From contig NZ_PQGG01000019.1 of the NCBI RefSeq assembly GCF_002915595.1, forward strand, positions 1 to 64,000: a stretch of 64,000 bases of DNA. Direction: 5' to 3'. This document shows positions 443-14,960 of the stretch, one piece after another. The stretch's first letter is position 1, and every line of letters begins with the position of its first letter. A program made the position numbers and the translations under genes. The notes below the pieces were generated by a model. It made no database searches. It was not told the DNA's origin and saw only the letters and a program-made list of their open reading frames with translations. The stretch is from Zhongshania marina (GTDB lineage Bacteria; Pseudomonadota; Gammaproteobacteria; Pseudomonadales; Spongiibacteraceae).

Positions 443-499
443 TGGTGCCCGGGGCCGGACTTGAACCGGCACGACATTGCTGTCGGGAGATTTTAAGTC
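443..499. repeat. Left attachment-site copy (57-bp tRNA-Leu 3' fragment)
   Basis: These 57 bases are identical to 10571-10627, the 3' part of the intact tRNA-Leu gene from anticodon arm to CCA. Similarity stops sharply at both edges (442 t against 10570 g; 500 c against 10628 t). This is the expected scar of site-specific integration into a tRNA 3' end. Confidence 0.93.
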
Positions 500-522
500 C
501 CCCTTTCCTGTTTGTACCTTTT

Positions 523-627
523 AATATGTAGCAATACGACTATTGTTTTTAAAGGATTTTTCTGCAATATTATCCCCTGTGTTAATACTGATTAATACGC
601 AAGTTGCTACATATTTGCTACATATTT
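523..627. repeat. Putative integrase arm-type sites, left end
   Basis: Two head-to-tail copies of GCTACATATTT lie at 606-616 and 617-627. A related copy in inverse orientation (AATATGTAGCA) lies at 523-533. The same tandem pair lies just inside the right end (10518-10539). Paired short repeats flanking the core sites next to int are typical of arm-type binding sites of tyrosine integrases. A separate 18-bp block at 582-599 recurs inverted at 6831-6848. Confidence 0.6.
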
Positions 628-653
628 CTATGGAAGCAACACAGGAGATTACC

Positions 654-1958
654 GTGTCGCGTAAGGTAAAGATAAACAATACATTCCTAAAAAGCCTAGA
701 TTCCGAAGACGGAAAACAGGTCGTTTACTGGGACGATGCCCAAAAAGGTTTTGGTGTTCGCGTCAATCCTGGTCGTGTTGTTGATGGTGTCAGAGAGCCC
801 GCGTGCACGTTCTTCATTCAGGATCGACTCAAGGGCCAAACAATTAAAGCCACCATAGGGAAGTACCCTACATTCTCCGCAGAGGCGGCTAGAAAGGTCG
901 CCAAGCTTTGGCTATTAAAGATTGCCAGCGGCGAAGATCCACGCATTCAGAAAGTAGAAGGCTCAGTCGGCGCCACGTTCGGAAATATGATGCTGGGCTA
1001 CTGTGAGTGGATGGAATCGGAGGGCAAAGTTAGCGCAGCCAAAGTAAAACGCGCGATCAAAAAAGATATTGAAACCGCCTACCCTCGCCTATGGAAAAAA
1101 CCCGCGAACCAGATCACTCCTGATGACTGCGACCGGATAATAGAGGCCATCGAATCAGAGGGTAAGAAGCGGCAAGCCGATAAGATCCGCGCTTACATGA
1201 AGACAGCATTCAGAAAAGCGATTAATGCCAGAGGAAAACGCCGCTACCCCGAGGGCTTACGTATTGCCGACATTAAAATCAATCCGTGTGCCGATATTGA
1301 AAAGGTCGAGGGATCAAGTAACGCGAGGGACAGAGCTTTATCAGTGGCAGAGTTCCGCGCCTACTGGAAGCATGCAAAGGCTTTCCCTGAGCCGCGCCGT
1401 TCAATAATGATGCTACACGTTCTCAGCGGCGGGCAACGAATAGACCAATTACGACGTATCACACTACCCGACATAGACCGCGATTCAGCTACGGCCACAA
1501 TGCTCGACTACAAAGGGCGACGAACCACGCCATATAAACACGTATTTCCCCTGCTCCCCGAAGCTTTAACCGCAATTGACAATTTAGCTGGCAGCGGCCT
1601 CTACGTCTTTTCATGCAACGGTGGCATATCTCCGGTATCTGACACTTACATTCGGAATGGTGTGATTATGATTCGCAAAGCTATGGAAGCTGCAGAAGAA
1701 CTTGAAAACGGCCATTTTACACCTGGCTCCATCCGCGCAACGATTGAAACTCGCTTAACAGCTAGCCCGTATCGCGTACCTGAAAACGTGCTTGGGCACC
1801 TATTAAGTCACGGTTTGGGCGGCGTTCAGGCTAAGCACTACCAAAAATACAAATTTCACGACGAGAAGCTAGAAGCACTGCAAATGCTGCTCTCAATGCT
1901 GGAAGGCAAAGAGCAAACCGGCAAAGTTATACCGATTAACGGGCAAGCTGCCCAATGA
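654..1958 (+). CDS. int: Tyrosine-type site-specific integrase
   Basis: A 434-aa recombinase that should insert and excise the element at tRNA-Leu. The GTG at 654 is chosen because an AGGAG Shine-Dalgarno (643-647) sits 6 nt upstream and the product then begins MSRKVKINN. The longer frame from 543 would run through the arm repeats at 606-627. The N-terminal ~90 aa look like the arm-binding domain of P4-type integrases, followed by a core-binding domain. In the catalytic part I see Arg262 (GQRIDQLRR), a Lys in LDYKGRR, Arg361 (GSIRATIET), His382 (LGHLL) and Tyr396 (KHYQKY). The box II His of the usual HxxR is Gly here (GSIR). It sits next to the left attachment repeat and points inward. Confidence 0.93.
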   Translation: MSRKVKINNTFLKSLDSEDGKQVVYWDDAQKGFGVRVNPGRVVDGVREPACTFFIQDRLKGQTIKATIGKYPTFSAEAARKVAKLWLLKIASGEDPRIQKVEGSVGATFGNMMLGYCEWMESEGKVSAAKVKRAIKKDIETAYPRLWKKPANQITPDDCDRIIEAIESEGKKRQADKIRAYMKTAFRKAINARGKRRYPEGLRIADIKINPCADIEKVEGSSNARDRALSVAEFRAYWKHAKAFPEPRRSIMMLHVLSGGQRIDQLRRITLPDIDRDSATATMLDYKGRRTTPYKHVFPLLPEALTAIDNLAGSGLYVFSCNGGISPVSDTYIRNGVIMIRKAMEAAEELENGHFTPGSIRATIETRLTASPYRVPENVLGHLLSHGLGGVQAKHYQKYKFHDEKLEALQMLLSMLEGKEQTGKVIPINGQAAQ

Positions 1959-1987
1959 AGAATTTGCGCCATACGGCGTAAATAAAC

Positions 1988-2019
1988 GGGGCCACCAGTG
2001 CGGGAACACTGAAAGCCCC
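1988..2019 (+). other. Stable hairpin in the leader of the small-gene operon
   Basis: The transcript can fold GGGGC(1988-1992)/GCCCC(2015-2019) and CAGTG(1996-2000)/CACTG(2007-2011), with apical loop CGGGAA. There is no T-tract, so it is not an obvious terminator. It lies 35 nt before the start at 2054. The loop exposes a GGA, the core recognised by CsrA-family proteins, and the element encodes a CsrA paralogue. The regulatory link is inference. Confidence 0.45.
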
Positions 2020-2053
2020 TAATCACAAAATGAACTACACAGGAGTTCAATCT

Positions 2054-2332
2054 ATGACTACCAGTAATGATACCAAAACAAACCGCCTCCCTGGCGGAAT
2101 CAATTTCGACCCAAATATGTCGGGAGGCGATCTCTTTGATGATGGGTTCGCGGTACTAGGATGCGCCATAGAGCAAATTAAGCAGGCCGCAAACAAGTTA
2201 TTTGAAAGCTCTGATGATGACGCGCAAAGCCTAGCCTCATGCCTCTATGGTGCAGTCTGGTTAACTGAAATAGCAAACAATATGTTTTTCACGGCAAGCG
2301 AGAAGAAGTATTTAGAGGAGTCACAGCTATGA
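2054..2332 (+). CDS. Small hypothetical protein, first of three coupled satellite genes
   Basis: A 92-aa product starting MTTSNDTKT. ATG 2054 is preferred to an in-frame ATG at 2030 because AGGAG lies 8 nt upstream. It is acidic with a predicted helical C-terminal half (IEQIKQAANKLFES, then ASCLYGAVWLTEIANNMF). I recognise no catalytic motif. Similar small helical proteins are common in early operons of P4-like islands, but I cannot name a family. Its stop overlaps the next start (ATGA at 2329-2332), indicating translational coupling. Confidence 0.7.
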   Translation: MTTSNDTKTNRLPGGINFDPNMSGGDLFDDGFAVLGCAIEQIKQAANKLFESSDDDAQSLASCLYGAVWLTEIANNMFFTASEKKYLEESQL

Positions 2333-2535
2333 ACACGAATAGAAAAAATGAGTTCAAAGAGCTACTAGCGGAAGTTCCTGAAGATAGGCTCCCAATCCTG
2401 CTAACCGGAATGAAGCTTATTTTGGCTAAAGACAAGCGGTTGCTTGAGCTTATCGCCGATGGTGGGAAAGGTGCGGAAATGTTCGATTACATTAATGCGG
2501 CTCACGAAAAGAACGCAAAGGAGGCTCTGCTATGA
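2329..2535 (+). CDS. Small hypothetical protein, second of three coupled satellite genes
   Basis: A 68-aa, mostly helical, charged product (MNTNRKNEFKELLAEVPED...). There is no signal peptide, membrane segment or recognisable motif. It starts in an ATGA overlap with the preceding gene and ends in another ATGA overlap with the next (2532-2535), so the three small genes are probably translated as one coupled unit. The role is unknown. The position between integrase and replication genes is where satellites keep accessory or regulatory functions. Confidence 0.65.
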   Translation: MNTNRKNEFKELLAEVPEDRLPILLTGMKLILAKDKRLLELIADGGKGAEMFDYINAAHEKNAKEALL

Positions 2536-2759
2536 AACAAGTCGCAAAAGTATCATCAGCATCCGTAATTGATGAAGCCGGTAGTATTGCCGAGAGAATT
2601 GAAACGTTATCTAAAGTTGTTGTTCTTGGTATCGACAATGAAAAAGGCGGCGACTTGGAGTTAAGTAGTGCAGACGCCTATGAAGCCGCCAGCATGATTG
2701 TTGACCTTGCAAGGAGACAAAAGCGTTTAATCGGCCAGATAGAAATTTCTCTCAAATAG
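2532..2759 (+). CDS. Small hypothetical protein, third of three coupled satellite genes
   Basis: A 75-aa product (MKQVAKVSSASVIDEAG...) with an amphipathic helical C-terminus (AYEAASMIVDLARRQKRLIGQIEISL). This resembles small phage/satellite proteins with a helical hairpin, but no family is recognised. AAAGGAG before the start overlaps the end of the preceding gene. It is followed by a GC-rich tetraloop hairpin (2771-2786), then the 2802 gene. Confidence 0.65.
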   Translation: MKQVAKVSSASVIDEAGSIAERIETLSKVVVLGIDNEKGGDLELSSADAYEAASMIVDLARRQKRLIGQIEISLK

Positions 2760-2770
2760 GAACCACCACC

Positions 2771-2786
2771 GCCCCCGCGAGGGGGC
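2771..2786 (+). other. GC-rich hairpin with GNRA tetraloop
   Basis: GCCCCC-GCGA-GGGGGC forms a perfect 6-bp GC stem closed by a GCGA (GNRA-class) loop, 16 nt upstream of the ATG at 2802 and close to its GGGA ribosome-binding region. With no following T-run it is more likely an mRNA stability or translation element than a terminator. Confidence 0.5.
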
Positions 2787-2801
2787 AAAGCGGGACGAAC
2801 C

Positions 2802-3449
2802 ATGCAAACCAAATATGAAGCCATCCGTAAAATTTGGACTAACCACGCAGAAAGCATTTTGATCAGGGCAGAACAAACCCATCTACCCGCTGATACAGAA
2901 ATAAATAAAATATTCACCCGAATTAATGAAGAGTACGAGCTAGCACCGCCGGAACTACAAGCCCAGCTTAGCCTCTTACCAAAATTTATCGGCGCCGCTA
3001 CAGCGCTCATGAAGGCTGGCGACTTAAAGCAAGTTAAATTCCATCTAATTAGAATCATTGATGACTACACAAAGCTAAAAGAGGCAATGGAGCTTACCCG
3101 CCTTGAAAAATACGATAATAGAACGCTTGAAATCACTGAGGTTAGGCGATCCGCAGGATATAAAGGCCTAAAAAGCCGATGGGCAAGCGAAACTAGAGAA
3201 GTCAGAAACCAAATTATCATTGATTTGGCTGCACGCAAGGATGTGTGGGGGCCGATACCGGCCAAGGAGTTATGGCCCGAGTATTTTGCAAGATTGGATT
3301 TTGATGGCCTCAACCCAATAGAGGAAGGCCCTTCACGCACATGCGACAGCTCAGTAATTCGGTGCGACGGGTTGCCAAACGGTATTTCATTTAAAACTTT
3401 TGAGAATCTACTTTCTGAAACAAGAAACCCAAAATCGAACAAAAAATAA
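2802..3449 (+). CDS. Hypothetical satellite protein
   Basis: A 215-aa, probably cytoplasmic protein of unknown function. The N-terminal ~100 residues are predicted helical with charged heptad-like stretches (NHAESILIRAEQTHL, FHLIRIIDDYTKLKEAMELT). The C-terminal part contains a basic segment (GYKGLKSRWASETREVRNQ) that could bind nucleic acid. No signal peptide or transmembrane segment. It is preceded by a stable hairpin and the weak ribosome-binding sequence GCGGGACGAACC. An 87-nt gap separates it from the AlpA-like gene. I do not recognise a family. Confidence 0.65.
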   Translation: MQTKYEAIRKIWTNHAESILIRAEQTHLPADTEINKIFTRINEEYELAPPELQAQLSLLPKFIGAATALMKAGDLKQVKFHLIRIIDDYTKLKEAMELTRLEKYDNRTLEITEVRRSAGYKGLKSRWASETREVRNQIIIDLAARKDVWGPIPAKELWPEYFARLDFDGLNPIEEGPSRTCDSSVIRCDGLPNGISFKTFENLLSETRNPKSNKK

Positions 3450-3536
3450 CCAATTAGTCCCGATGGCTAAGCCAAGAAAATCCAACCATTTTAATAAGAA
3501 CCTCGTTACTAATCTGTATCAAGCGAGGTACACAAC

Positions 3537-3785
3537 ATGTCAACACAGGCACCCCAATCCACTGGCCTAAGCAACCCCGCAGATGGCTACATCATAGTCC
3601 CTAAACTACTTGACGAGCATCAGCTCTCCGAAGTCACAGGGCAAAGCGTTTACAAAATCCGCAAAGACCGAATACAAGGACGCGGGCCAGTATTTGTAAA
3701 ACTCGGTTCATCCGTTAGGTACCGCCCTTCCGATGTTGCCGACTACATAGCAAGCAATCTTCGCCAGAACACCAGCGAGGGTTAA
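3537..3785 (+). CDS. AlpA/excisionase-like helix-turn-helix regulator
   Basis: An 82-aa DNA-binding protein of the AlpA/HTH_17 type. After a flexible N-terminus (~20 aa) it reads IIVPKLLDEHQLSEVTGQSV, then YKIRKDRIQGRGPVFVKLGS and VRYRPSDVADYIASN. This is the winged-helix pattern in which a tyrosine/arginine-rich turn (KLGSSVRYRPSDV) contacts DNA. In P4-like elements such proteins switch on int or act as excision factor. AGCGAGG lies 10 nt upstream of the ATG. Its position before the replication gene fits control of early genes or excision. Confidence 0.8.
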   Translation: MSTQAPQSTGLSNPADGYIIVPKLLDEHQLSEVTGQSVYKIRKDRIQGRGPVFVKLGSSVRYRPSDVADYIASNLRQNTSEG

Positions 3786-3790
3786 AATAA

Positions 3791-4126
3791 ATGAACAAAA
3801 AAAATGGCCGCACCAAAGGCACGACCACTCAAACAAACACACGCACACAGTATAGCAAAATAGCCAGCCTTGGGCTAAATGGACAAGCGCACCGCATTAC
3901 TTTTTTTATTCTTGAAAACCCATGCGCCCTGACACATCACATAGCCCATCGGTGCGCAGTTGGCAATGTATCCCACGCGGCCAAGAAAGCTAATGCAAGG
4001 CTTGGCAAAGTTGGCCTTCGCCTTATTTGCACAGAACCACACCCCCGAATAATTAATCGCTTTGGCGTACCTTCCCCAGTGCATCAATGGGAGCTTGTAG
4101 AGATCGGGGGTGCTGATGAACAATAA
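3791..4126 (+). CDS. Small basic hypothetical protein, possibly winged-helix
   Basis: A 111-aa basic protein. After a Thr/Lys-rich N-terminus the segment AHRITFFILENPCALTHHIA and CAVGNVSHAAKKANARLGKV resembles a winged helix with a recognition helix, and ends in a hairpin (HQWELVEI). Similar small proteins precede satellite primases and may help load them or regulate them, but I cannot assign a family. It begins 5 nt after the AlpA-like gene and its end overlaps the start of the primase gene, consistent with one operon. Confidence 0.6.
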   Translation: MNKKNGRTKGTTTQTNTRTQYSKIASLGLNGQAHRITFFILENPCALTHHIAHRCAVGNVSHAAKKANARLGKVGLRLICTEPHPRIINRFGVPSPVHQWELVEIGGADEQ

Positions 4127-6584
4127 CACGCCTCTTTTCCCGCTCTATAGTCGAATCAATAACACGACACCAGCCAAAGCAATTAGCCTTTCTGAGGTGG
4201 TTAGTTTGGCAGTCTCGCCTACCGTTGGCCCTAAAGCCGACGCTGCAGCTCTGACACCCTACAAAGCCAGCGCCAAAACGAAAGACGTTGCACAACTGTC
4301 GCAGTATTACGCCTTAATTCTCGATCATGACAACGACAACAGAACCGGCGAAGCGATCCGAGCAATCTACGACCCGTTAGACGTGGCCTATCTCGCATGG
4401 ACTACGTCAAGCCACATGCAACGAAAAAAGAATGAGCCAGCCGCTCCACGGTGGAAGGTTCTAATTCCCTTCGTCCAACCAGTAGACGCAGAACGATACA
4501 CCGGCCTCGCCATTGGCGCCGCCCTACTTTTCGATACTGACAAAGGCCAGACACCTATTCAGCAAGTGCTTTACGCGCCTAACAAGCTGACAAAAGACGC
4601 GCCTTATGAAGTCATCGACCACACAGACCGGCTAAAACTAGATCCGCTGGATAATTCTGCAGCTTTAGTAAAAGCATGTTTCAGAGAGTTTGCCGACCAC
4701 CAGCAACAACAAGCGCAATCTGCGCAGCGGTCGCTACTAAAGCCCCGCCCCGTAGATACTCAGAATGGCAGTATTATTAGCCTAATCTGTGGTGCTTACT
4801 CATTGCGCGAACTACTAGAGTGCAACGGCTACCGACGCCAAGGGAGCGCGTATCTTGCGCCTCAAAGCACAACGGGAACCGCTGGCGTTTACATATTAGA
4901 TGGCGAGAAAGAGCGCCTATACAGCCACCACGGCACCACAGACCCGCTTTCAAACCTAAACCATGATGGCCACGCCCTCGACGCCGCTGACGTGCTTTGC
5001 ACCCTGCAATATGGCGGTGATGAAACGACCATGATTAAGGAAGAAGCGGCGAAGCTAGACCCCGACGGACAAAAGCACCGGCAAATGGAGCATGTTAAAA
5101 AGAAAGCGGAAATACAGCAGGTAAAAACGAACAATGAAACAAAGGACGACCAACCGCTCGACTTGTTCAATAAGTTTGTGCCGCCGCCCTTTCCTATTGG
5201 ATTACTCCCTAAAGTAATTGCCGACTATGCCACCGACCAATCAACCCTAATCGGGGTAGATCCCGCCGTCATTGGTATGAGCGCAATTTGTGCGGCTGCA
5301 AGCTGTATCGATGACCGGATAAAAATACAGCCAAAACGAAACGACCCGACATGGACAGAAAGCGCGCGTCTTTGGGTGGCAATAATCGGAGATCCATCGA
5401 CCAAAAAAAGCCCAGGAATATCCAAAGCGATGAAGCCGCTTTTCAAGATCGACCAACGGTGGAGAACTGAAACCGCCAAAGCCCTCTACGAGTGGCAAAA
5501 AGATTGTGATGCGGTACAAAAAGGCGACGACCTACCAGACCGTCCGATTGAAAAGCGCCTAATCGTTAACGACATAACCGTCGAGAAGTTAGGCGACATT
5601 TTGAGCAAGTCAGAACCGCGCGGCATTCTCAGTTATCAAGACGAGCTGACCGGCTGGCTGACCTCAATGGACGCCTATAAAAACGGTGCGGGCAAAGATC
5701 GAGCAGCATGGCTAGAAGCATTCAATGGAGGGCCTAAAGCAATTGATCGTATAGGCCGAGGCTCTACTTTCGTGGACAACTGGAGCACTTGCGTACTAGG
5801 CGGCATTCAGCCCCAAGTCGTGCAAAACTACGCCCACAACACCAACCACGACGGAATGATCCAGCGGTTTTTATTGGTGTTCGCAGACCCGGCAAAACTA
5901 GATAAGGATATAAGCCCAAACCTGACCACGCTGGACGAATACAGGGGCTCACTGGAGCAATTAGCCGGTCTGATGCCTAGCAGTAAGCCCGTTACTCTTT
6001 CGGAGCCAGCACAGCTCATTAGAGAGGCCCTGAACGAGAAGTTGCACAACGCAACAGTAAGCCTTCCAAATAAGTTTTTAACGGCTGCAATGGGTAAATG
6101 GCAAGGGATCTATGCCCGCCTGCTACTGGTATTTCACTGCTTAGAAATGGCAGAAGAATTTACGCACCCGACAAGCCAGCCAGTTAGCGGCAAAACAGCG
6201 CAACAAGTTGCCAACTTAATGTGGCGTGTACTTCTCCCCCACGCGGTTAGGTTTTACCACGACCTAGACCCAGCGGAAGAAAACGCCCGCAACATTGCTT
6301 CACTACTACTAGCTAGAAACTGGGAAAGGTTCACTGTTAAACGAGACCTTGACCGGTATATGAAGGCCACGCGGAAAATGAAGCCCTGGGAACTAGAGCA
6401 AACCCTTGACCGACTAGAAGCGTTTAGCTGGATACAACCAGACCCCGGCAAGATAAACGAAAAAGGCAAACCATCAGCCTACCTAGTAAACCCTAAAGTG
6501 CACACGCTATTCACCGAACACGCAAAGATAGAGCGAGAACGCAGAGCGGAAGTGTCGGCGATGATGGCAGAAATAGGTAGATAA
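4116..6584 (+). CDS. Primase/helicase-like replication protein (DUF3987 family)
   Basis: An 822-aa protein, probably the element's replication initiator. The N-terminal ~200 aa contain a YALILDHDNDN segment typical of virulence-associated E/prim-pol-like domains, and R/K-rich stretches (PRWKVLIPF). From about residue 350 the sequence fits DUF3987: IGDPSTKKSPGISKAM near residue 425 is the P-loop-like motif, and GILSYQDELTGWLTSMD is the Walker-B-like region. The C-terminal ~100 aa look like a winged helix (MKPWELEQTLDRLEAFSWI). ATG 4116 is used (an in-frame GTG at 4110 is also possible); the gene overlaps the preceding one by 11 nt. Satellites of this type replicate autonomously after helper induction; that is inference here. 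Confidence 0.82.
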   Translation: MNNNTPLFPLYSRINNTTPAKAISLSEVVSLAVSPTVGPKADAAALTPYKASAKTKDVAQLSQYYALILDHDNDNRTGEAIRAIYDPLDVAYLAWTTSSHMQRKKNEPAAPRWKVLIPFVQPVDAERYTGLAIGAALLFDTDKGQTPIQQVLYAPNKLTKDAPYEVIDHTDRLKLDPLDNSAALVKACFREFADHQQQQAQSAQRSLLKPRPVDTQNGSIISLICGAYSLRELLECNGYRRQGSAYLAPQSTTGTAGVYILDGEKERLYSHHGTTDPLSNLNHDGHALDAADVLCTLQYGGDETTMIKEEAAKLDPDGQKHRQMEHVKKKAEIQQVKTNNETKDDQPLDLFNKFVPPPFPIGLLPKVIADYATDQSTLIGVDPAVIGMSAICAAASCIDDRIKIQPKRNDPTWTESARLWVAIIGDPSTKKSPGISKAMKPLFKIDQRWRTETAKALYEWQKDCDAVQKGDDLPDRPIEKRLIVNDITVEKLGDILSKSEPRGILSYQDELTGWLTSMDAYKNGAGKDRAAWLEAFNGGPKAIDRIGRGSTFVDNWSTCVLGGIQPQVVQNYAHNTNHDGMIQRFLLVFADPAKLDKDISPNLTTLDEYRGSLEQLAGLMPSSKPVTLSEPAQLIREALNEKLHNATVSLPNKFLTAAMGKWQGIYARLLLVFHCLEMAEEFTHPTSQPVSGKTAQQVANLMWRVLLPHAVRFYHDLDPAEENARNIASLLLARNWERFTVKRDLDRYMKATRKMKPWELEQTLDRLEAFSWIQPDPGKINEKGKPSAYLVNPKVHTLFTEHAKIERERRAEVSAMMAEIGR

Positions 6585-6950
6585 CATGATTGTCGAAAAT
6601 GTCGTACGTGCGCGCGTAACAGATAGAAGAAAAGCGACTATTTATAATAAAAAATATAGAAATGCTGACTCTCTTACGTGCACGCATACGACAAAGGCGA
6701 CATTAAGCACGCAAAGACTGGCTAGAGTGGTTGCGTCCGAACTGGATAACCAAAACCCCACACCCCTATCACGCCCTAAATTACCTGATTTTACATTAAA
6801 CTTTTGTAACACAGGAGATTTGTAATCACCCGTATTAATCAGTATTAATCTACTATACAAGCACCATTTGTTAGTACGCCTAATAATATGTAGCATATAT
6901 GTAGCATCTTATTAAATTAGACCTAACAAACAACAGAGATACCAGCACTT
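6585..6950. other. Module junction without a convincing gene
   Basis: These 366 nt lie between the replication and packaging genes. A 79-codon frame (6586-6825) has a low-complexity, Thr/Arg-rich translation and no good ribosome-binding site. The right half holds AACACAGGAGATT (6808-6820), identical to the ribosome-binding region of int (638-650) but with no start codon at the right distance. It also holds an 18-bp inverted copy of 582-599 and two arm-like motifs. Confidence 0.5.
6831..6906. repeat. Internal copies of the integrase-end repeats
   Basis: 6831-6848 (CGTATTAATCAGTATTAA) is the exact reverse complement of 582-599. 6885-6906 contains two head-to-tail ATATGTAGCA motifs, the inverse of the GCTACATAT arm motifs at 606-627 and 10518-10539. 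Such a block between primase and terminase genes could be a replication origin, a packaging (pac) site or an additional integrase site. The sequence does not decide among these. Confidence 0.6.
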
Positions 6951-7301
6951 ATGAGCAAGATACAAGAACCACCACATAAGTTATCCGGTAACTGGATTAA
7001 GGATCTAGACGGACGTACCGAACTCGCCCAAACAATGCGCGCCAACTACCTAGAAATGACCAACCACCTAGGCGGCGATGGAGTCTTGAGCTATTCGCAA
7101 CGCGCCCTAGTCGAACAGGCTTTATGGCTTCAATACTGGCTAAGGCAAGAGAACGCCAAAATGGCTAATGGTGGCGAATATGACGTGGGCAAGGTAACGG
7201 CAGCATCGAACAGCCTACAAGGCATCCTGATGAAGCTAGGACTACGCAAACAAGCCCGCGACGTAAGCCTGAAGGATCTAGTCGACAGGGTCGCGCAATG
7301 A
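6951..7301 (+). CDS. terS: Terminase small subunit-like protein
   Basis: A 116-aa protein immediately upstream of, and overlapping, the large terminase gene (ATGA at 7298-7301). The N-terminus (PHKLSGNWIKDLDGRTELAQ) and the helical segments (LSYSQRALVEQALWLQYWLR; VTAASNSLQGILMKLGLRKQ) follow the pattern of P27-type small terminase subunits, with the conserved N-terminal linker and an oligomerising helix pair. The role would be to recognise the packaging site and recruit the large subunit. No clear Shine-Dalgarno precedes the ATG. The assignment leans on length and position; the sequence match is moderate. Confidence 0.72.
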   Translation: MSKIQEPPHKLSGNWIKDLDGRTELAQTMRANYLEMTNHLGGDGVLSYSQRALVEQALWLQYWLRQENAKMANGGEYDVGKVTAASNSLQGILMKLGLRKQARDVSLKDLVDRVAQ

Positions 7302-8689
7302 ACTACATTCAGTTCATCGATACCCCCGAATTAATGGGGGATACCTTTCAAGGCGAAAGCCGCCAACCGATGCGAACCGTACTCACAGCAGCTTATGGGT
7401 TGCCACTTACTGACGACCAAACATCTTTTTTTAAGAAGGTAGCCGGTGGCCGAAACCCACCAAAAAAGCGAGTAAACGCACTTGCAATAGGTATAGGGCG
7501 CCGTAATGCTAAAACCGAAACAGTAATGAGCGTGGCCTTGTATATATGCGCAATAGAAGGCAGCAGCGAGCGCATACAATCGAGACTAAGCCCCGGCGAA
7601 TCTGCTGTTGTCGCTGTTATCTCACCAGACCGCAATCAATCAAAAATCGCTATGCAATACGCGGCGGGGATGGTTGAGCAATCCCCAGTCCTTCGCTCAA
7701 TGGTAATTCGGCAAGACAGCGAGTGCATAGAATTTTCAAATCGCACTCGGATCGAGGTTAATACCGCAAGCTTTCGCGCCGTACGTGGACGGACATTACT
7801 AGCATTAATACTAGACGAATGCGCCTTTTTCAGAACTGATAATAGCGCCAATCCAGACGTAGAAATTTATCGCGCCGCCGTACCGGGGCTTGCAACACTC
7901 GGCGGTATGGTGATCCTCATTAGCAGCCCTTACGCAAAGCGTGGATTGCTGTATTCAATGCATCAGGATCACTACGGCCGCGACAGCACCACCCTGTACA
8001 TCAAAGGCAGCACATTAGATTTTAACCCAACTCTTGACCCGCAGATTATTTACGACGCCTTACGTGACGACCCAGAAGCCGCCAAGTCTGAATGGCTAGG
8101 AGAATTTCGCTCAGACCTTGAAGCCTTCATTAGCCGCGAAGTAATTGAGTCATGCACCCGAACCAGCCCGCTTGAATTGCCATACAACAACAAGTTTCGA
8201 TATTTCGGTTTTGCCGATCCAGCAGGTGGTGGACAGGATGAGTTCACTATGGCCATTGGACACCATGAAGGCGATGTCACCATTGTTGATGTTGTACGCG
8301 GTTTAAAAGGCACACCAAGCGCAATCGTTGCCGAGTATGCGCAGCTATTCAAAGCCTACAAGGTCAGCTCCATTATTGGCGACCGCTACGCTGGCTCATG
8401 GCCTGCCGATGAATTTAAGAAGCACGGCATTACGCTAAACCATAGTGAGAAAGCAAAGAGCGATTTATATGTCGATTGCCTACCCATGCTTAACAGTGGG
8501 CGCGTAGAGCTGCCACCCGACACCATCCTTACCAACCAACTAACCAACCTAGAGCGCCGCACTAGCCGCTCAGGGCGCGACAGTATCGACCACCCAAGCG
8601 GCGGACATGATGACAGAGCAAACGCTATGGCCGGATTGGTGGCGACCAATGCCAAGCGTTCCAGGTACACCCTCGCCAATGTTTCATGA
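7298..8689 (+). CDS. terL: Terminase large subunit (packaging ATPase and nuclease)
   Basis: A 463-aa packaging motor. The ATPase part has a Walker-A variant GRRNAKT at residues 67-73 (the GxxxxKT form found in TerL proteins), and a Walker B plus catalytic Glu at ALILDE (169-174). A coupling-motif-like ILISSPYAKRG follows at ~207-216. The C-terminal RNase H-like nuclease keeps three acidic positions: Asp307 (FADPAGG), Asp362 (IIGDRYAG) and Asp438/439 (GGHDDRANA). The length is normal for a small TerL, and both activities look intact. It is unusual that no portal, protease or capsid gene follows, so it would have to load DNA into another phage's procapsid. Confidence 0.9.
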   Translation: MNYIQFIDTPELMGDTFQGESRQPMRTVLTAAYGLPLTDDQTSFFKKVAGGRNPPKKRVNALAIGIGRRNAKTETVMSVALYICAIEGSSERIQSRLSPGESAVVAVISPDRNQSKIAMQYAAGMVEQSPVLRSMVIRQDSECIEFSNRTRIEVNTASFRAVRGRTLLALILDECAFFRTDNSANPDVEIYRAAVPGLATLGGMVILISSPYAKRGLLYSMHQDHYGRDSTTLYIKGSTLDFNPTLDPQIIYDALRDDPEAAKSEWLGEFRSDLEAFISREVIESCTRTSPLELPYNNKFRYFGFADPAGGGQDEFTMAIGHHEGDVTIVDVVRGLKGTPSAIVAEYAQLFKAYKVSSIIGDRYAGSWPADEFKKHGITLNHSEKAKSDLYVDCLPMLNSGRVELPPDTILTNQLTNLERRTSRSGRDSIDHPSGGHDDRANAMAGLVATNAKRSRYTLANVS

Positions 8690-8726
8690 ACAGGATCACC
8701 AATACTTAACCTTTGAGGTAACACCT

Positions 8727-9077
8727 ATGAACTTAGCAGACCAAGCATACAACGATTATGTAAACGATTTAGAGAGCGGGAATTACCATCGCAAGAAAAA
8801 GCACAACGAAAGGCGCATTGATGAGGCGCGGCTGTATGGCGACATCATCCCCGATGGCGGCAAGGTCAGCGTTAGCCTAATCATGATGGATAGCATCGAC
8901 CAAATTCAGCAGGAGATTATGTCTAATTCAGCGCAGCGTGAACAAGATCGGCAAGACGCTATCCGCGACCACCACGCCGCAACACACGAGCAATGCTCAA
9001 AGCAGGACGCATACGACAGTTATGTTAATGATCTAACTAGCGGCAACTACTACAATCAATGGAGAAACCCAGCATGA
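8727..9077 (+). CDS. Small hypothetical protein with an internal repeat
   Basis: A 116-aa hydrophilic protein starting MNLADQAYN, preceded by GAGGT 6 nt upstream. The in-frame ATG at 8607 would lie inside terL and is not preferred. The motif AY(N/D)xYVNDLxSGNY occurs at residues ~6-19 and again near the C-terminus (~99-112), separated by a charged helical middle. A terminal repeat like this suggests two copies of a short binding helix. The stop overlaps the next start (ATGA at 9074-9077). No family is recognised; a packaging-associated adaptor is possible from position only. Confidence 0.65.
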   Translation: MNLADQAYNDYVNDLESGNYHRKKKHNERRIDEARLYGDIIPDGGKVSVSLIMMDSIDQIQQEIMSNSAQREQDRQDAIRDHHAATHEQCSKQDAYDSYVNDLTSGNYYNQWRNPA

Positions 9078-9694
9078 ACGAATTACGCCAAGTAATTGCA
9101 GACGCATTGTCTACAGACCTAACCTCTGCCCAATATCTTGATATACAAAATCAGATAGATACACGACGGAGAGAGGTATCTGCTCGCTTAGCTGCTATTA
9201 AGCCAGTTGGTAAGCATGGCGGCGAAGCAGGCCCCGAACGCCGCAAGGCTTTAATCAGCGGCACACCTGATGATGTTCGCGCCATCGAAAACGAGTATGC
9301 GGATCTCTCAATCGAGGCTGAACAGCTAGACATGCAGCGCCAAGCCATTCGGAACCGCCTTGATTCGGCCTCTCACAAGGAAGCAGCGGAAAGCATACCT
9401 GCAATGCTTAAAGACCTTGAATCACGAATGACAGCCATCGAGTCAACACGCGACCGGCTAAACACGCAGCTACAGGAGTTTGATTCAGCGTATAACGCAG
9501 TAGTCACAGCCAGAAGCATAGCTATTCGTGGCGGGCATATACCAGCAACACCCAAGCCTCGACTTGCTGAACGTATCCGAGCGTTTGCACCTTGGGCCGA
9601 ACACTTGAGAACGCGGGTATTTGGGCGGCATTGCGACCACTCCGAGGAGTTAGGAATAACCTTCTCGCAAGGGCATTTAGGCCAATCCCTTTAA
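9074..9694 (+). CDS. Coiled-coil hypothetical protein
   Basis: A 206-aa protein that starts at ATG 9074 (GGAG 9 nt upstream; ATGA overlap with the previous stop). Residues ~25-160 are almost entirely charged helix: IQNQIDTRRREVSARLAAIK, IENEYADLSIEAEQLDMQRQ and LESRMTAIESTRDRLNTQLQ. This predicts a long coiled coil resembling phage scaffold, tape or capsid-morphogenesis helpers. The C-terminal ~45 aa are basic. In satellites, late genes at this position sometimes encode capsid-remodelling proteins; there is no direct evidence for that here. Confidence 0.65.
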   Translation: MNELRQVIADALSTDLTSAQYLDIQNQIDTRRREVSARLAAIKPVGKHGGEAGPERRKALISGTPDDVRAIENEYADLSIEAEQLDMQRQAIRNRLDSASHKEAAESIPAMLKDLESRMTAIESTRDRLNTQLQEFDSAYNAVVTARSIAIRGGHIPATPKPRLAERIRAFAPWAEHLRTRVFGRHCDHSEELGITFSQGHLGQSL

Positions 9695-9720
9695 CTTATA
9701 ACTGTCAGCGCACTACCTAT

Positions 9721-9838
9721 GGTGGTGCCGCGTACCGCCGGTTTAGAGCGCGGGTAACATCACCGGCAGCCAGTGCCGCGAGGCCTCCTTTGCAGATGGC
9801 GGTGAACTGGTACTAAGCCCCTTAATTGGGGCTTTTTT
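9721..9838 (+). ncRNA. Candidate structured antisense-type RNA (C4-like)
   Basis: The plus strand folds into two hairpins followed by a terminator. Hairpin 1 pairs 9728-9732 (CCGCG) with 9749-9753 (CGCGG) and has an inner ACCG/CGGT. Hairpin 2 pairs 9770-9779 (CCAGTGCCGC) with 9799-9810 (GCGGTgaACTGG). The terminator is at 9815-9838. The layout recalls the C4/CI immunity RNAs of P1, P7 and P4-like elements, short RNAs that silence antirepressor or early operons. The family assignment is from memory of the general architecture and was not checked by a covariance search. Confidence 0.35.
9815..9838 (+). terminator. Rho-independent terminator of the satellite late region
   Basis: AAGCCCC-TTAA-TTGGGGC followed by TTTTTT is a classic intrinsic terminator. 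It closes the rightward transcription unit carrying the terminase and small genes, or the candidate RNA just upstream. Confidence 0.85.
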
Positions 9839-10204
9839 ACGCCTAGCCCTAAAATCCTCTTCTTTAGCTAAGCGGGAATTCCCGCTTTGCAGTAGTACGC
9901 GCGCGAGGCAATCAGCCACCAGCTCAAAGGTGGGATTTTCCGTAATTACAGCAGTACAGGCGGGAAGCAAGCAGCTTGAGAGCCCAAAATGTAGATTTAC
10001 CCTTAGCCCAACCCGATATGCAGATATGCACATCGTCACACGGGCAAACTACCGGCATCACGGTATTTAGAAACTATGCAGATATGCACAGTTGAAAGCC
10101 GAGCTCCAAACTGGACAATTTTGTCTAGTTTACAATTCCGAGAACCGGCCCTTTTAAGGGTGCCTTTTGAAAACTGACCCTTTCGGATTTAAGATCCAGA
10201 AGTA
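9839..10204. other. Non-coding stretch with a 16-bp direct repeat
   Basis: This 366-nt stretch separates the rightward satellite genes from the leftward csrA gene and contains no convincing gene. TATGCAGATATGCACA occurs twice, at 10017-10032 and 10075-10090, 58 bp apart start to start. CCCTTTTAAGGG (near 10150) is a palindrome downstream of csrA. The repeats could be operators or replication iterons. Confidence 0.5.
10017..10090. repeat. Pair of 16-bp direct repeats
   Basis: Two identical copies of TATGCAGATATGCACA start at 10017 and 10075. Each contains ATGCAnATATGCA, itself imperfectly symmetric, which fits a dimeric DNA-binding protein. The spacing is about five and a half helical turns. 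Confidence 0.6.
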
Positions 10205-10381
10205 TTAGCCGTCACTCTGGCGATCGTCTTCACTATCTAGCAATTCAGACCTAAGAACCTTCACCCACTCGGGAGCGTCAATTGATACCCGAACTTGGCC
10301 GCCATTAATTTGCCGAATGTGAACGACGATGTCTTCATCTATCTGGAACGACTCGCCAGAACGGCGCGTGATTGTAAGCAT
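10205..10381 (-). CDS. csrA: CsrA/RsmA-family translational regulator carried by the satellite
   Basis: A 58-aa RNA-binding protein. From ATG 10381 it reads MLTITRRSGESFQIDEDIVV, then HIRQINGGQVRVSIDAPEWV and KVLRSELL, aligning over its whole length with CsrA. Arg6, Arg7, Glu10, the APxxVxVxR signature and the RNA-contacting Arg44 fall at the canonical positions. AGAGG lies 8 nt upstream of this ATG, so the in-frame start at 10414 is rejected. CsrA dimers bind GGA motifs in mRNA leaders and alter translation or stability. It is convergent with the rest of the element and adjacent to the right attachment site. Sequence differences from housekeeping CsrA (Trp39, Leu43) mark it as a diverged paralogue. 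Confidence 0.9.
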   Translation of the reverse strand: MLTITRRSGESFQIDEDIVVHIRQINGGQVRVSIDAPEWVKVLRSELLDSEDDRQSDG

Positions 10382-10517
10382 ATCCTTTGCCTCTTTATCG
10401 TTAGTCCAAGCCAAAGAATAGCACTAGATAGCGGATTGATTAAACAGATCGAGACTGACTAAAGACAATTCAGCGGGAGATTGGAAATAAATTGCTTAGA
10501 TTAATTTATTCTAAGCT

Positions 10518-10539
10518 GCTACATATTTGCTACATATTT
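10518..10539. repeat. Putative integrase arm-type sites, right end
   Basis: Two head-to-tail GCTACATATTT copies (10518-10528, 10529-10539) lie 31 bp inside the right attachment copy. They are identical to the pair at 606-627 and in the same orientation, as expected for P'-arm binding sites of the integrase. Confidence 0.6.
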
Positions 10540-10570
10540 GAGGGTGGTTAGTAAACACTATCAAGGAGAG

Positions 10571-10657
10571 TGGTGCCCGGGGCCGGACTTGAACCGGCAC
10601 GACATTGCTGTCGGGAGATTTTAAGTCTCCTGTGTCTACCGATTTCACCACCCGGGC
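10571..10657 (-). tRNA. tRNA-Leu (UAA anticodon)
   Basis: An 87-nt gene on the minus strand with a 7-bp acceptor stem (GCCCGGG/CCCGGGC) and encoded CCA. The anticodon arm GGAGACTTAAAATCTCC gives UAA. There is a class II variable arm (CGACAGCAATGTCG), and the T-arm contains GTTCAAGTC. The 3'-terminal 57 nt (10571-10627) are the integration target duplicated at 443-499, so the satellite restores a complete tRNA. Confidence 0.96.
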
Positions 10658-10799
10658 TAAGGGGTTTGGCGTAGGCCAATGTGATATGCAGGACGCGGAA
10701 AAATACGCCGAAACTGCTTATGCGGTAGTGCTAAAAAAGCGTTCGCAGTCTACTTATACTGTCCTAAAAAATCAACGGCTTAGATCAGTTAATTACAGT

Positions 10800-13169
10800 T
10801 TAAGCTGCCACTTTTTGCAGCTTAACTTTGTGGGCGTCGCGTCTACGTACCAAAACTAGCAATCCTGAGGCTAATAGCAGCATTGCGACAAAGGGGTATT
10901 TTAATCCATAAACCAAAGGGCTTAGGCTGATTCGGGTCGCTAAACGCAGAGCGTCAGAGCTCGCAATGCGATCTGCAATTGGCGGCGAATACCGGTAATA
11001 GGCTGCGACAAATGCCTGCCCCCACTTATAGGGCAACAACACCTTGTCACGAAATTCACGCAGAATTTTAACGTCAGGAGCTAAATAGCTGCCATAGGCG
11101 GCAGTCGCAATAAAGCATGCTCCACCCCCGCCATTGCGCGACGAAGGCGTTGCTTGCGTCGATGCGGGAGTTGCAAGGGGGATCGGGTCAGCCCCGATTA
11201 AAGACGCCAAATAACTTGCAGCAGCCTCAGCGTTAATTAAGCCACTTCCCGTTACATCGTCTTTGCCCTCACTGGCCCGAAAACCTTTTACGTCGATTGC
11301 GGTGTTTGTTACTGACGCAATCAATTGCTCCGGACTAACCCCTGCATACGCTTCTTTGAATAGCGCAAATACCGCTGCCGCGTTTGGTGCCGCCGCCGAA
11401 GTACCATAAAAGTTTAGAAAATTGTCTGGCTCGCCGGCTTCTGAGGGCACTACCGACGACCCCAGCACCGTATTATTATTACCATCGATAGCGGCAAAAT
11501 GAGGAGCTGATCGTGTTTGCGGCGCGTATTGCCCATTACTATCAAACTGAATAGTGATATCACCACCACGCGAACTGAAGGGCTCTGGGTCAATTTCGAT
11601 AGTGTCATAGGCTTCAGGTCGATATTCAGGCGACTCCCACCACGGAACCGCTGCGACACTCGCAACGCCCCGCGCAGTTGAATGCCCCCACACTGACGGC
11701 CCGTTGTAATCGTATTCCACACTCACCAGCTCATCGCCAGTCAACAACAAGCGAAACTCTAGGGGTACGCCGCTTTGCTGAGGAATGTCACCCTGACTAC
11801 CATCAAAGTGCTCTACAGCAAGGTAAAACGTCTCAGGTGAAGCACCGGAGGTCAGTATGACAACTTCCGACGCATCTCCCCTCGGGTTTCCGGTCGTACC
11901 CTGTTCGTCGCTGCTGCGGGCATAAAAATGACGAGAGGACGGGTTTAATGCAGCGACGGATTCCGCCCTCGTTGCGTACAAATCCAAATCAATCTGTGCG
12001 CCATTGGCAGAATTTATCGAGCTGTTTGGTTGATTCCAGATAAGTACTGCGTAAACAGTTGAGTTAGCGGGAATACGCAACTCTAAAAATGCATCCTCCC
12101 CGCTATTACTCCAATTATGTAAATCATTACCACTGGGAAATCGACTAAGACCAGGCTCGTCAATATTCGCCACTAAGTCTCTGTAAACATAGCGATAGGC
12201 TTGGTCTCGATCGTTACCTGCCGCCGTTAAATAAGGAATGCCTTTGCTTACACAATTACTCGCCGCCAAAGCGGGCACATCGTCTTGATAAGCGCTTTCA
12301 TTGAGAAACAAAATATCATCAACCACGATATCAGCACGACCATTCGCGCAAAGCTGATCTATCGCATCGGCCATTTCTGCCCTGCTCCGCCCAGCCGCAT
12401 GAAAAATCATCGCCGCTCCGGGGGCCGCATCGTGGATTAATTCCCCCATTGCGGCGCCTTCGTCAGTGCCTTCAGGCACATCGTCTCGCAATATCGAGAT
12501 AAGAGCAGGAAGGTCGCCGCTATCTTGTTGCCGACTCCCCTGTAATATTCCCGCGTCAAACTGTGCGGGCACCGTGTTTCCGTCGCGGACAATTGAGGTT
12601 TGCGCAAAGCTGTCTGAAATAATACCAATAGTCTGCCCGCTACCATCAACACCAAGCGCACTCGCAGCCAAGTCGGAGCGCATTGCTTTTGGTGCTCGAC
12701 TGGTCACAGCGCCAACTCTTAGTATTGTTGGCGGCAAATAGCGGATCTCTCGAATGCTTTCATTCTCGGACAAACGCGATAAATCTGCAGCACTGCGAAT
12801 TTGAACGGTTGCTCGCTTGCCATCCTTAGCGAGAAAGGACAAAGCAATACCCTGCTCCTCCAAAAACTGGGGCAAGCCATCAGCTGTATTTAAAAACAAC
12901 TCAACGTCTACACCCCTAGTTGCTAAGCCCCCAATAAGGCGAGTCACCATCGGCCCAGCACTGTCAACAATGGGCTTTAGAGAAAGAGAGGCTATGTCGC
13001 TACTGGCACTATTAACGGCTATAGCCTTCAGGTGGCTATCCACCTTCGCGATAAAATCACCCAACTTTCTGTCCGCCTGCTTAATATTAGCGCTCGCCCA
13101 TACAGCGCCCCCAGAAAAAAGCAGGAACAGCACACAACAAACAATTGATGTCTTATTTTTGAAACTCAT
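10800..13169 (-). CDS. S53-like/subtilase-fold serine protease with CFI-box C-terminus
   Basis: A 789-aa exported protease. ATG 13169 has AAAGG 6 nt upstream. A signal peptide (residues ~1-25, ending AVWA-S) is followed by a propeptide-like region. The catalytic domain has Asp186 (IGIISDSFA) and Ser591 (FYGTSAAAP). At the position of the subtilisin HGT motif it reads [18 protein letters not shown], so Glu237 replaces His. Asp, Glu and Ser with an AAGN oxyanion segment match the S53-like branch of subtilase-fold peptidases. A jelly-roll-like insert precedes the Ser. The C-terminus has [15 protein letters not shown] (a CFI-box sorting signal), then a transmembrane helix (~755-780) and basic tail, suggesting surface anchoring or processing. 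It overlaps the upstream lipoprotein gene by 17 nt. Confidence 0.85.
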
Positions 13170-13635
13170 CAAAAACCTTTATTGCCACGGCCATTTTGGG
13201 TGCAGAGCTGCTAATAGAAACAACGCTCACCCCATATATTTTAGATAGCGCCATTAATTGCTCGGCACTTTTCGCCCACAAATAAATTCGCTGATTGGCA
13301 GGGTTAATATAATCTACGCTATAGCCCGCCTGACGGATCTTTTCGATAATGGCATCGGTTTTCTCCTCCCAATAGCGAATATCCAACAGCAAGCCTTTTT
13401 CAGCGTCGATAAAATACCCTGGTGTTTGTATCGCCTGCTGCCACAAAGTATCGTCTAGTCGCAAAAATCTATCCAGCGGGGATTGGTATACCACGCGCTG
13501 AATCACATCGGCATCTTGCTTTGCAGCTTGGCGCTCAGACTCGTGATTGCTACAGGAAAGTAATAATCCGCCAAATGCCACAGCAATTAGCGCCACGTCG
13601 ACTACCGCAATTAATACCCCTCTGAATTTACTCAT
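13153..13635 (-). CDS. Putative lipoprotein partner of the protease
   Basis: A 160-aa protein directly upstream of, and overlapping, the protease gene. The N-terminus has a hydrophobic segment and a lipobox-like GLLLSC (Cys28). The C-terminal ~70 residues ([15 protein letters not shown] ... [20 protein letters not shown]) follow the same pattern as the protease's own pre-catalytic region ([15 protein letters not shown] ... [17 protein letters not shown]). This resembles the ferredoxin-like fold of I9/propeptide inhibitors. A membrane-tethered chaperone or inhibitor of the protease is my inference; no family is recognised directly. Confidence 0.6.
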
Positions 13636-13854
13636 AGCAATTCACCAGCCCAGACATACTCATAACAAGCATATCGACTGCAGCTCATTTGCAATGTAAG
13701 GGATTTACCTAGTGAGATTACGTAGCAGGCACGGTTGAGTTTGCGCCGGAACGATATGGAAACAGATTAAATAGCTTCGGTGGACAGTGGTTGGGTTTTA
13801 TTGTTGCGAAATAGTTGCGGTTAGTAGCCGCTTACTGGGAAAGTCTTTGAGAAA

Positions 13855-13928
13855 TGGAGGCGCGGGTCGGAATCGAACCGGCGTACACGGAGTTGCAGTC
13901 CGCTGCATGACCACTCTGCCACCGCGCC
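13855..13928 (-). tRNA. tRNA-Cys (GCA anticodon)
   Basis: A 74-nt minus-strand gene with acceptor stem GGCGCGG/CCGCGCC, anticodon arm GGACTGCAACTCC (GCA), T-arm GGTTCGATTCC and encoded CCA. It belongs to the Gly-Cys-Leu tRNA group downstream of pgsA, here interrupted before Leu by the protease locus. Confidence 0.96.
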
Positions 13929-13995
13929 TAAGTCACTTTGTAATACACATTTACTTGTGTACGCCGGTGTTGCCGGCTCTTTCAATCTCGCCGTA

Positions 13996-14097
13996 GGCAC
14001 TGGAGCTGCAGTCCGCTTCATGACCACTCTGCCACCGCGCCTAAATCACTTTGTAATACACATTACCTTAGGCACTGGTTTGCAATCCACTAGAGGG
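13996..14097 (-). pseudogene. Decayed partial copies of tRNA-Cys
   Basis: 14002-14041 nearly repeats the 5' half of tRNA-Cys (gcagtccgcttcatgaccac, then tctgccaccgcgcc) and is followed by the same flank (atcactttgtaatacacat) that follows the intact gene at 13931-13950. A shorter, more diverged echo (ggcactggtttgcaatcc) lies at about 14070-14090. The T-arm halves are missing, so these cannot fold as tRNAs. They look like leftovers of tandem duplication or of excised elements that used this tRNA. Confidence 0.7.
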
Positions 14098-14146
14098 AAC
14101 GCAGCGCCATACTGCATCGCAGGTGATCTGCTCCGCTGCGATATAT

Positions 14147-14222
14147 TGGAGCGGGAAAGGAGGCTCGAACTCCCGACCTCAACCTTGGCAAGGTTGCGCT
14201 CTACCAACTGAGCTATTCCCGC
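14147..14222 (-). tRNA. tRNA-Gly (GCC anticodon)
   Basis: A 76-nt minus-strand gene with acceptor stem GCGGGAA/TTCCCGC, D-arm AGCTCAGTTGGTAGAGC, anticodon arm ACCTTGCCAAGGT (GCC), T-arm GGGAGTTCGAGCCTCC region and encoded CCA. It lies 135 nt downstream of pgsA, the usual place in gacA-uvrC-pgsA gammaproteobacteria. Confidence 0.96.
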
Positions 14223-14357
14223 GTCACTTATACCTCGAGTTTTTACTTGATCTCTCAAGCCTGATTTTCAGCATTGAGCTGTGCTTCAGGAAGGCGCCTA
14301 TTCTAGTCAGAGATAATTTCCTGTCAAGGAAAGTCGCTGATTTAACGTAATTTTTTT

Positions 14358-14918: not shown

Positions 14919-14960
14919 ATTGATCTCATCAGCGGCAGTCCCGCCTATTCTATTCGGTTT

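Follow-up and report, generated by a model that had tools for sequence, protein, structure and literature searches.

The window analysed here consists of the 64,000 nucleotides at the start of contig NZ_PQGG01000019.1 of Zhongshania marina (positions 1-64,000; genome coded G000, contig coded C11). Near its left end, preceded by 442 bases, lies an integrated mobile element which is probably a satellite resembling the phage-inducible chromosomal islands (PICIs), and which would bring a complete terminase of its own, a putative small subunit TerS and a large subunit TerL, to the procapsid of a helper phage. This reading is drawn from sequence comparison. The element is bounded by a direct repeat, found at 443-502 and 10571-10630 (59 of 60 positions identical, the first 57 exact, spacing 10,128), and it was taken to span 443 to about 10657, because the right copy sits inside an intact tRNA-Leu gene. 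From left to right, its features (ORF, open reading frame) are as follows.

443-502: attL attachment site, displaced 3' end of tRNA-Leu (57 nt exact, 59/60 overall)
522-627: left attachment arm, with TGCTACATATTT at 522-533 (minus strand) and an 11-bp-phased pair at 605-627 (plus strand)
630-1958, plus strand: tyrosine integrase, alternative TTG start at 543 (phrog_1, E 9e-33)
2030-3449, plus strand: four small ORFs (100, 68, 75 and 215 aa), no family at E<=0.001
3537-3785, plus strand: AlpA-like excisionase/regulator (phrog_66, E 4e-4; PF12728, E 0.003, below its cut-off)
3791-4126, plus strand: 111-aa ORF, no family at E<=0.001
4110-6584, plus strand: DUF3987 helicase-primase (E 3e-54)
6884-6906, minus strand: repeat pair upstream of terS, 11-bp-phased, same repeat as in the attachment arms
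6951-7301, plus strand: putative TerS (position, size, 4-nt overlap with terL, co-conservation)
7298-8689, plus strand: TerL (phrog_2, E 1.5e-24)
8607-9077, plus strand: 156-aa ORF, with a relative in element L003 (E about 1e-6)
9059-9694, plus strand: 211-aa helical protein following TerL, with a relative in L003
10205-10414, minus strand: CsrA-like cargo gene, assigned by sequence reading
10517-10539, plus strand: right attachment arm, 11-bp-phased repeat pair
10571-10657, minus strand: intact tRNA-Leu (taa) gene, containing attR

The family profile of TerL matched solved terminase large subunits across the nuclease part. The window TerS gave no PHROGs or Pfam family, and the TerS alignment found no credible match in the PDB. 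Ten window proteins were scanned against PHROGs and Pfam, and none gave an accepted match to a portal, capsid, protease or tail family; the Sid and Psu capsid-size families, a trait of P4-like satellites, matched none of them either. ORF 8607-9077 has two matches that were not counted, one to a tail-assembly chaperone (E 1e-3, below the cut-off of the model) and a weak one to an internal virion protein (E 0.02). The AlpA-like ORF is 38-39% identical to the ORFs in the same position in two related elements, L015 and L111 (see below), and these homologues strengthen a label that is weak by profile; an AlpA-type regulator downstream of the integrase gene is indeed a property of PICIs. The integrase itself is 53% identical to that of L015 and 49% to that of L111. 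The original prediction had described such a delimited element, with tRNA-Leu repeat, integrase, AlpA-like regulator, DUF3987 protein and a TerS-TerL pair but no virion gene, and this description was confirmed, as that of a conserved mobile element.

A further property shared with PICIs is that the window element, equipped with its own integrase, is inserted at a specific site between direct repeats. The tRNA-Leu query matched all 18 genomes of the genus, that of Z. marina included, and the site was inspected in five of the 17 others. In four of these five (G123, G361, G326 and G171), the tRNA-Leu and its right flank were present with a single full att copy and zero element proteins, i.e. the site was unoccupied. 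In the fifth (G343), the same tRNA-Leu was occupied by a different integrase-AlpA island without TerL (L137, about 4903-11918), carrying AlpA, an integrase-like ORF and a replication-protein-like ORF. On the left side of the window element, at the contig edge, ORF 25-249 resembles by eye the end of an IS3-type transposase, which is the likely reason why the assembly stops there.

Relatives of the element were found in other genomes. A contig scan with the window TerL retrieved Aliidiomarina indica (L002) and an uncultured Oceanospirillales metagenome-assembled genome (MAG; L003), each 52% identical. Genome searches then gave L007 and L008 at the level of the order (3 of 390 genomes, E<=1e-10), L014, L015 and the contig-split G424 at that of the class (4 of 369, E<=1e-40), and L111, plus L112 and L113 (other classes), at that of the phylum (4 of 398, E<=1e-60), the genome of origin being included in each count. 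The family considered below comprises eight elements, the window element and L002, L003, L007, L008, L014, L015 and L111, five of the seven relatives being from the window's class. Kept outside these counts were G424 (L016 and L017, with TerL split over two contig ends), L112, which falls outside the clade, and L113, with an interrupted TerL. In the latter (9945-12225, genome G908), a TerL of the family is split by about 0.9 kb bearing a 212-aa ORF, and the region is flanked by tRNA-Gln repeats 16 kb apart. All eight elements have a tRNA gene at one end, and in seven of them the att repeats are clear (spacing 7.4-11.3 kb). The sites of the relatives are listed below.

L002 (Aliidiomarina indica): tRNA-Pro, repeat spacing 8,983
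L003 (Oceanospirillales MAG): tRNA-Leu, repeat spacing 11,327
L007: tRNA-Ser, repeat spacing 9,774
L008: tRNA-Pro, repeat spacing 9,391
L014: tRNA-Leu, repeat spacing 7,353
L111: tRNA-Leu, repeat spacing 9,598
L015: tRNA-Leu, left att copy only a weak candidate (27/40)

A homologue of the putative TerS precedes terL in all eight elements, the two genes being adjacent. Several groups can be told apart among the integrases and among the replication proteins, so that the elements appear as mosaics around the terminase. A full TerS-TerL pair without detected portal, capsid or tail genes thus recurs in seven relatives. The proposed conserved block, which ran from the integrase and primase through the terminase to csrA, was retained for its TerS-TerL part (8/8); csrA was recognised only in the window among the eight elements, and was rejected as part of the block. 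The CsrA family PF02599 was matched by a single one of the 57 element proteins described below, and was assigned to 10205-10414 from its sequence.

The absence of detected virion genes was evaluated on 57 predicted proteins from seven elements, excluding integrase, TerS, TerL and the main primase. The complete Pfam list (E<=0.001) held 13 families, of which the virion-type ones were DUF2213, in L008, and the below-cut-off tail-chaperone match. PHROGs gave 43 families, the best 25 of which were methyltransferase, primase, regulator, excisionase, CsrA, head-maturation-protease and unknown. The protease families were traced to one 157-aa DUF2213 protease-like protein of L008. The eight elements also supplied a second set of 38 proteins, from which those with known matches, and part of the short or antisense ORFs among the 57, had been removed; against PHROGs it yielded nothing at E<=0.001 and three weak matches up to 0.01. 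In L111 the scan covered only five proteins besides integrase, AlpA, primase and terminase. For the ORFs scanned (some short ones excluded), and as far as these libraries reach, the eight elements showed no portal, capsid or tail family. Structural genes in intact relatives, the finding which would have spoken for a deleted prophage, were not detected among the ORFs scanned in seven of the eight, L008 having the one protease-like gene. As cargo, L003 carries by its right end (12579-15527) a cytosine methyltransferase and an HNH protein, possibly a restriction-modification system; PADLOC matches, on 10 proteins from six elements, were confined to three L003 cargo proteins.

TerL appears to be maintained as a functional protein. 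Ten of its positions (G67, R68, R69, K72, D173, E174, D307, D362, D438 and D439), which we take to be the Walker A, Walker B and nuclease residues, are invariant in the eight elements. In each of the 28 pairwise comparisons, terL varies most at codon position 3, the pattern expected from selection on the protein. In a tree of 41 TerLs, with an arbitrary root, the eight elements form one clade (support 100/99), outside which phages, plasmids and L112 fall; when L111 was left out, the seven remaining elements grouped likewise among 39 TerLs (100/98).

The regulation of the terminase may be linked to excision. In the 64-kb window, TGCTACATATTT, a pattern chosen after the repeat had been noticed, has seven matches with at most one mismatch, vs 0.31 expected, and all seven lie inside the element. 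Each element was then evaluated by taking the 7-mers common to both arms and scoring them in 300-nt windows inside the element. The stretch preceding terS was top-scoring in five of the eight elements: no other window reached its score in the window element (0/352), L002 (0/300), L007 (0/334), L014 (0/237) and L015 (0/260, with an uncertain left arm). This suggests that the repeats common to both arms and to the region upstream of terS constitute a set of AlpA/excisionase sites, which would couple excision to terminase expression.

A protein of 168-268 aa is encoded by the first or second gene past TerL in all eight elements, in four groups (window and L003; L002 and L111; L007, L008 and L015; L014 alone). 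The L002 type also occurs in the circular locus L029 described below (E 2e-8). AlphaFold2 models of two groups were mostly helical, that of the window protein (9059-9694), for the window/L003 group, with a mean predicted local distance difference test (pLDDT) score of 77 and a helix at 70-156, and that of the L007/L008/L015 group with a mean pLDDT of 73. From its position and modelled shape, this protein may be a capsid-size, scaffold or portal-access factor. The C-terminal part of the L007/L008/L015 type seemed to resemble a small resident-prophage protein, but this resemblance did not hold on comparison.

Beyond these eight elements, the single window TerL found no relatives among viral contigs when used as a query, and a profile of seven TerL members retrieved 126 loci from IMG/VR, of which 80 were kept. 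ORFs were listed for 35 loci (L018, L022-L050, L101, L103-L106) and family searches were made on chosen proteins; most of these contigs are possibly incomplete; terminal direct repeats were found in L029 and L033 only, of 16 tested. Portals were recognised in six of six candidate proteins tested (L018, L040, L042, L043, L046 and L048; 476-876 aa), at loci whose TerL is 37-43% identical to that of the window. At other loci, one virion gene or a few were present, of the tape-measure, baseplate-hub, protease, tail-fibre or neck kind, with a major head protein also in L025. The wider TerL group is thus more graded than a terminase alone, since it includes both phages and loci with few virion genes. 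Part of the TerL relatives outside the clade belong to full phages, others having few tail, protease or head genes, and no portal or capsid was detected within the clade.

L029 (1-9819) and L033 (1-9398) look closed at 9.8 and 9.4 kb, in line with their terminal repeats of 114 and 60 nt. Both carry TerS and TerL, and the DNA of L033 is 82-95% identical to that of L029. The ORFs of L029 include an integrase-like protein, the helical-type protein that follows TerL, and neck, replication and tape-measure proteins, the last three being confirmed by PHROGs; no portal or capsid was seen among the L029 proteins scanned. These two loci may be satellites setting tail length. TerS and TerL of this group were also found on Komagataeibacter plasmids, with DUF2213, ParA and VapE. 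On the K. nataicola plasmids L104 and L106, a recombinase-TerS-TerL-DUF2213-ParA unit (with VapE once) is present largely twice per record, TerS and TerL being annotated as hypothetical proteins. A 9.7-kb circular Roseomonas plasmid (L105), considered as a minimal satellite, was not counted, its TerL ORF (8253-8762) stopping at 169 aa; it also has a DUF5906 protein, a recombinase and a TerS homologue.

Regarding the helper, the phage-type contig L048 carries a phrog_146 portal and a DUF2213 protease, and its TerL is 41% identical to that of the window. Its DUF2213 protein is 32% identical to that of L008 and 43% to that of the plasmid unit L104, and phages of the L048 type are our best guess for the TerL donor or the helper, on the grounds of this homology and of the portal. 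When DUF2213 was used as a helper marker in nine host genomes, it was found only inside the element of L008; a search for the PF06381 portal in the same nine gave zero matches, controls included, and was uninformative. The genome of Z. marina has a resident prophage (C11, about 83-106 kb; loci L135 and L136, about 83-119 kb), which encodes terminase, portal, protease, capsid and connector proteins as well as a tape measure of 2,147 aa; an integrase lies near 118.8 kb. As a matching helper, this prophage found no support.

From a mechanistic point of view, what can be read in the sequences (the boundaries and gene content of the element, its unoccupied site in relatives, a TerL with intact catalytic residues, the joint conservation of TerS and TerL, and the shared repeats) would fit the following cycle. 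Infection by a helper, or its induction, would raise the level of the AlpA-like protein, which would bind the phased repeats in both arms and direct excision from tRNA-Leu by the integrase; on the same repeats upstream of terS, it would switch on the terminase operon. The DUF3987 protein would replicate the excised circle into concatemers. The satellite TerS would then select satellite DNA, and the satellite TerL would dock on the helper portal, pump this DNA and cut it. Adaptation of the procapsid, in its size or in access to the portal, may fall to the protein whose gene follows terL, and the tails and lysis functions of the helper would complete the particle. Such an element would be neither a standard PICI, as it has its own TerL, nor a capsid-forming PICI (cf-PICI), as no head genes were detected.

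Several observations weigh against this satellite reading. AlpA binding, packaging, docking on a portal, the role of the protein following TerL and the helper are all steps that we infer. The family is rare: besides G000, it was found in two of 389 genomes in the order, three of 368 in the class and three of 397 in the phylum, at differing cut-offs. The TerS proteins tested, from the window and relatives, match no characterised TerS, so that homology supports their identity within the group only. The repeat test fails in L003 and L008, where 147 of 396 and 84 of 318 windows reach the score of the stretch before terS, and is weak in L111 (8 of 320); in L015 it depends on a weak att candidate, and the control windows, being mostly coding DNA, are an imperfect control. 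The groups of proteins encoded after TerL bear no visible relation to one another, and fold searches with the two models returned no match at E<=0.001. The TerLs of L014, L015 and L111 are 42-43% identical to that of the window, vs 37-43% for phage-type loci, so that only the tree, and not identity, separates satellites from phages. Finally, the TerL and portal of the resident prophage belong to other families, and the genome searches revealed no further TerL of the family in Z. marina, so that no resident phage is recognised as a matching helper.

Alternative explanations were weighed against the same data. It is rather unlikely that the element is a form of a known marine satellite group, the virion-encapsidated integrative mobile elements (VEIMEs) or the tycheposons, whose members would already have been reported to carry terminase genes. 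Both are cited as marine satellites in the available text, and hosts of the family include Aliidiomarina and the Oceanospirillales MAG, whose habitat is presumably marine or saline; however, TerS-TerL without head genes was not described in the literature searched, which did not extend to the primary VEIME and tycheposon papers. Slightly less credible, and in our view unlikely, is a satellite of the P4 type, or close to the phage-inducible chromosomal minimalist islands (PICMIs), that uses the helper terminase, its own TerS-TerL serving in interference, by competition for the helper portal or cutting of helper DNA, as a decoy defence. Known satellites do move without a TerL of their own, and the methyltransferase and HNH cargo of L003 points to phage conflict. 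However, a TerS candidate is retained beside TerL, where its likely role is to recognise the element's own DNA, and in five of the eight elements terS has the repeats of the arms before it, a link to excision which favours self-packaging.

A deleted prophage, i.e. a full phage reduced by the loss of head, tail and lysis genes, with the terminase left as a fossil, seems very improbable. TerL relatives outside the clade do belong to phages with portals, as in the six candidates mentioned above, yet the closest relatives of the window TerL are not complete phages, since they form with it the clade of eight without detected portal or capsid. These eight elements, in different hosts and at tRNA-Leu, tRNA-Pro or tRNA-Ser sites, keep TerS-TerL, the presumed catalytic residues of TerL are intact in all of them, the arm repeats are present on both sides and the site is unoccupied in relatives. 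A lone deletion is discounted by these sister elements with the same arrangement, and independent losses halting at the same place are improbable. That the element makes small particles of its own, one of its proteins without family being a very divergent portal or coat, is the least credible explanation and hardly to be expected, since, although the protein past TerL has no known function in any of the eight elements, no structural family was matched and the two modelled groups are mostly helical and shorter than the portals found.

The satellite reading can be compared with known systems. Gram-negative PICIs of the EcCICFT073 type are described, in the part of the source available, as having a site-specific integrase, AlpA and a primase or replication module, and as being packaged in helper virions, some of them carrying terS (PMC6092414). 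The window element has the same integrase-AlpA-primase backbone, a similar size and no virion gene detected among its ten scanned proteins; of the replication module of PICIs, taken as primase plus origin, it shows the primase part, the DUF3987 protein. Unlike these PICIs, which as far as that text goes have at most TerS (PMC6092414) and rely on the TerL of the helper, it has a TerL conserved in all eight elements. With cf-PICIs and their plasmid form cf-PISP, it shares the coding of both TerS (here assigned by position) and TerL; by contrast, the capsid, protease, portal and connectors reported for these systems in the available text (PMC10690885, PMC13230959) were not detected in the window element, and the other seven elements have only the DUF2213 protein of L008. 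PICMIs are likewise minimal integrase-AlpA-primase satellites of marine bacteria, but in the available description lie next to fis without terS, sid or ppi homologues, unlike elements of 7-11 kb with TerS-TerL at tRNA sites (PMC10803314). The Pseudomonas element AH14b, which is inferred to use the capsids of the co-resident phage AH14a, also has AlpA, integrase and primase, but it is 16.8 kb long and the part of the report available mentions no terminase for it (PMC4936722). The Marinitoga plasmid pMP1 is another small replicon without known virion genes, and it is packaged in the capsids of its helper phage MPV1; in the text available, it has no detected TerS homologue and is thought to rely on the TerS of the helper (PMC11921389). 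P4-like satellites use the P2 terminase and cos, and the TerL of the window element argues against membership of that group. In the Wolbachia plasmid pWALBA1, as far as its available description goes, TerL occurs together with a portal, which is a different arrangement.

In the literature searched, whose coverage stopped short of VEIMEs, tycheposons and the SatelliteFinder census, no satellite was found with TerS-TerL and without portal or capsid. The novelty of a terminase-only satellite family is thus provisional, and the proposed label of an undescribed satellite class is plausible for the window element. A wider idea, which we put forward tentatively as having a little less than an even chance, is that of a broad proteobacterial class of satellites, integrated or circular, defined by their own TerS-TerL and a helical protein after TerL, without portal or capsid. 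Branches of this class would add single genes that shape the particle, such as the DUF2213 protease (L008, Komagataeibacter plasmids) or tape measure and neck (L029, L033). They would replace the motor of the helper, and sometimes its tail ruler, but not its shell, and many would switch on excision and terminase together through one repeat, present both in the att arms and at the terS promoter.

As far as the available sources describe them, satellites appropriate the complete motor of their helper, divert it by means of their own TerS, or come with an entire head. If the satellite reading is true, this family fills the missing middle, a motor without a shell, and the natural matching of a terminase to a foreign portal becomes testable. 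TerS-TerL beside integrase and AlpA genes, in the absence of a portal, offers a marker for satellites which searches based on known satellite genes or on capsids may miss, and the circular relatives, which have a tape measure of their own, are a hint that satellites might also set a new tail length.

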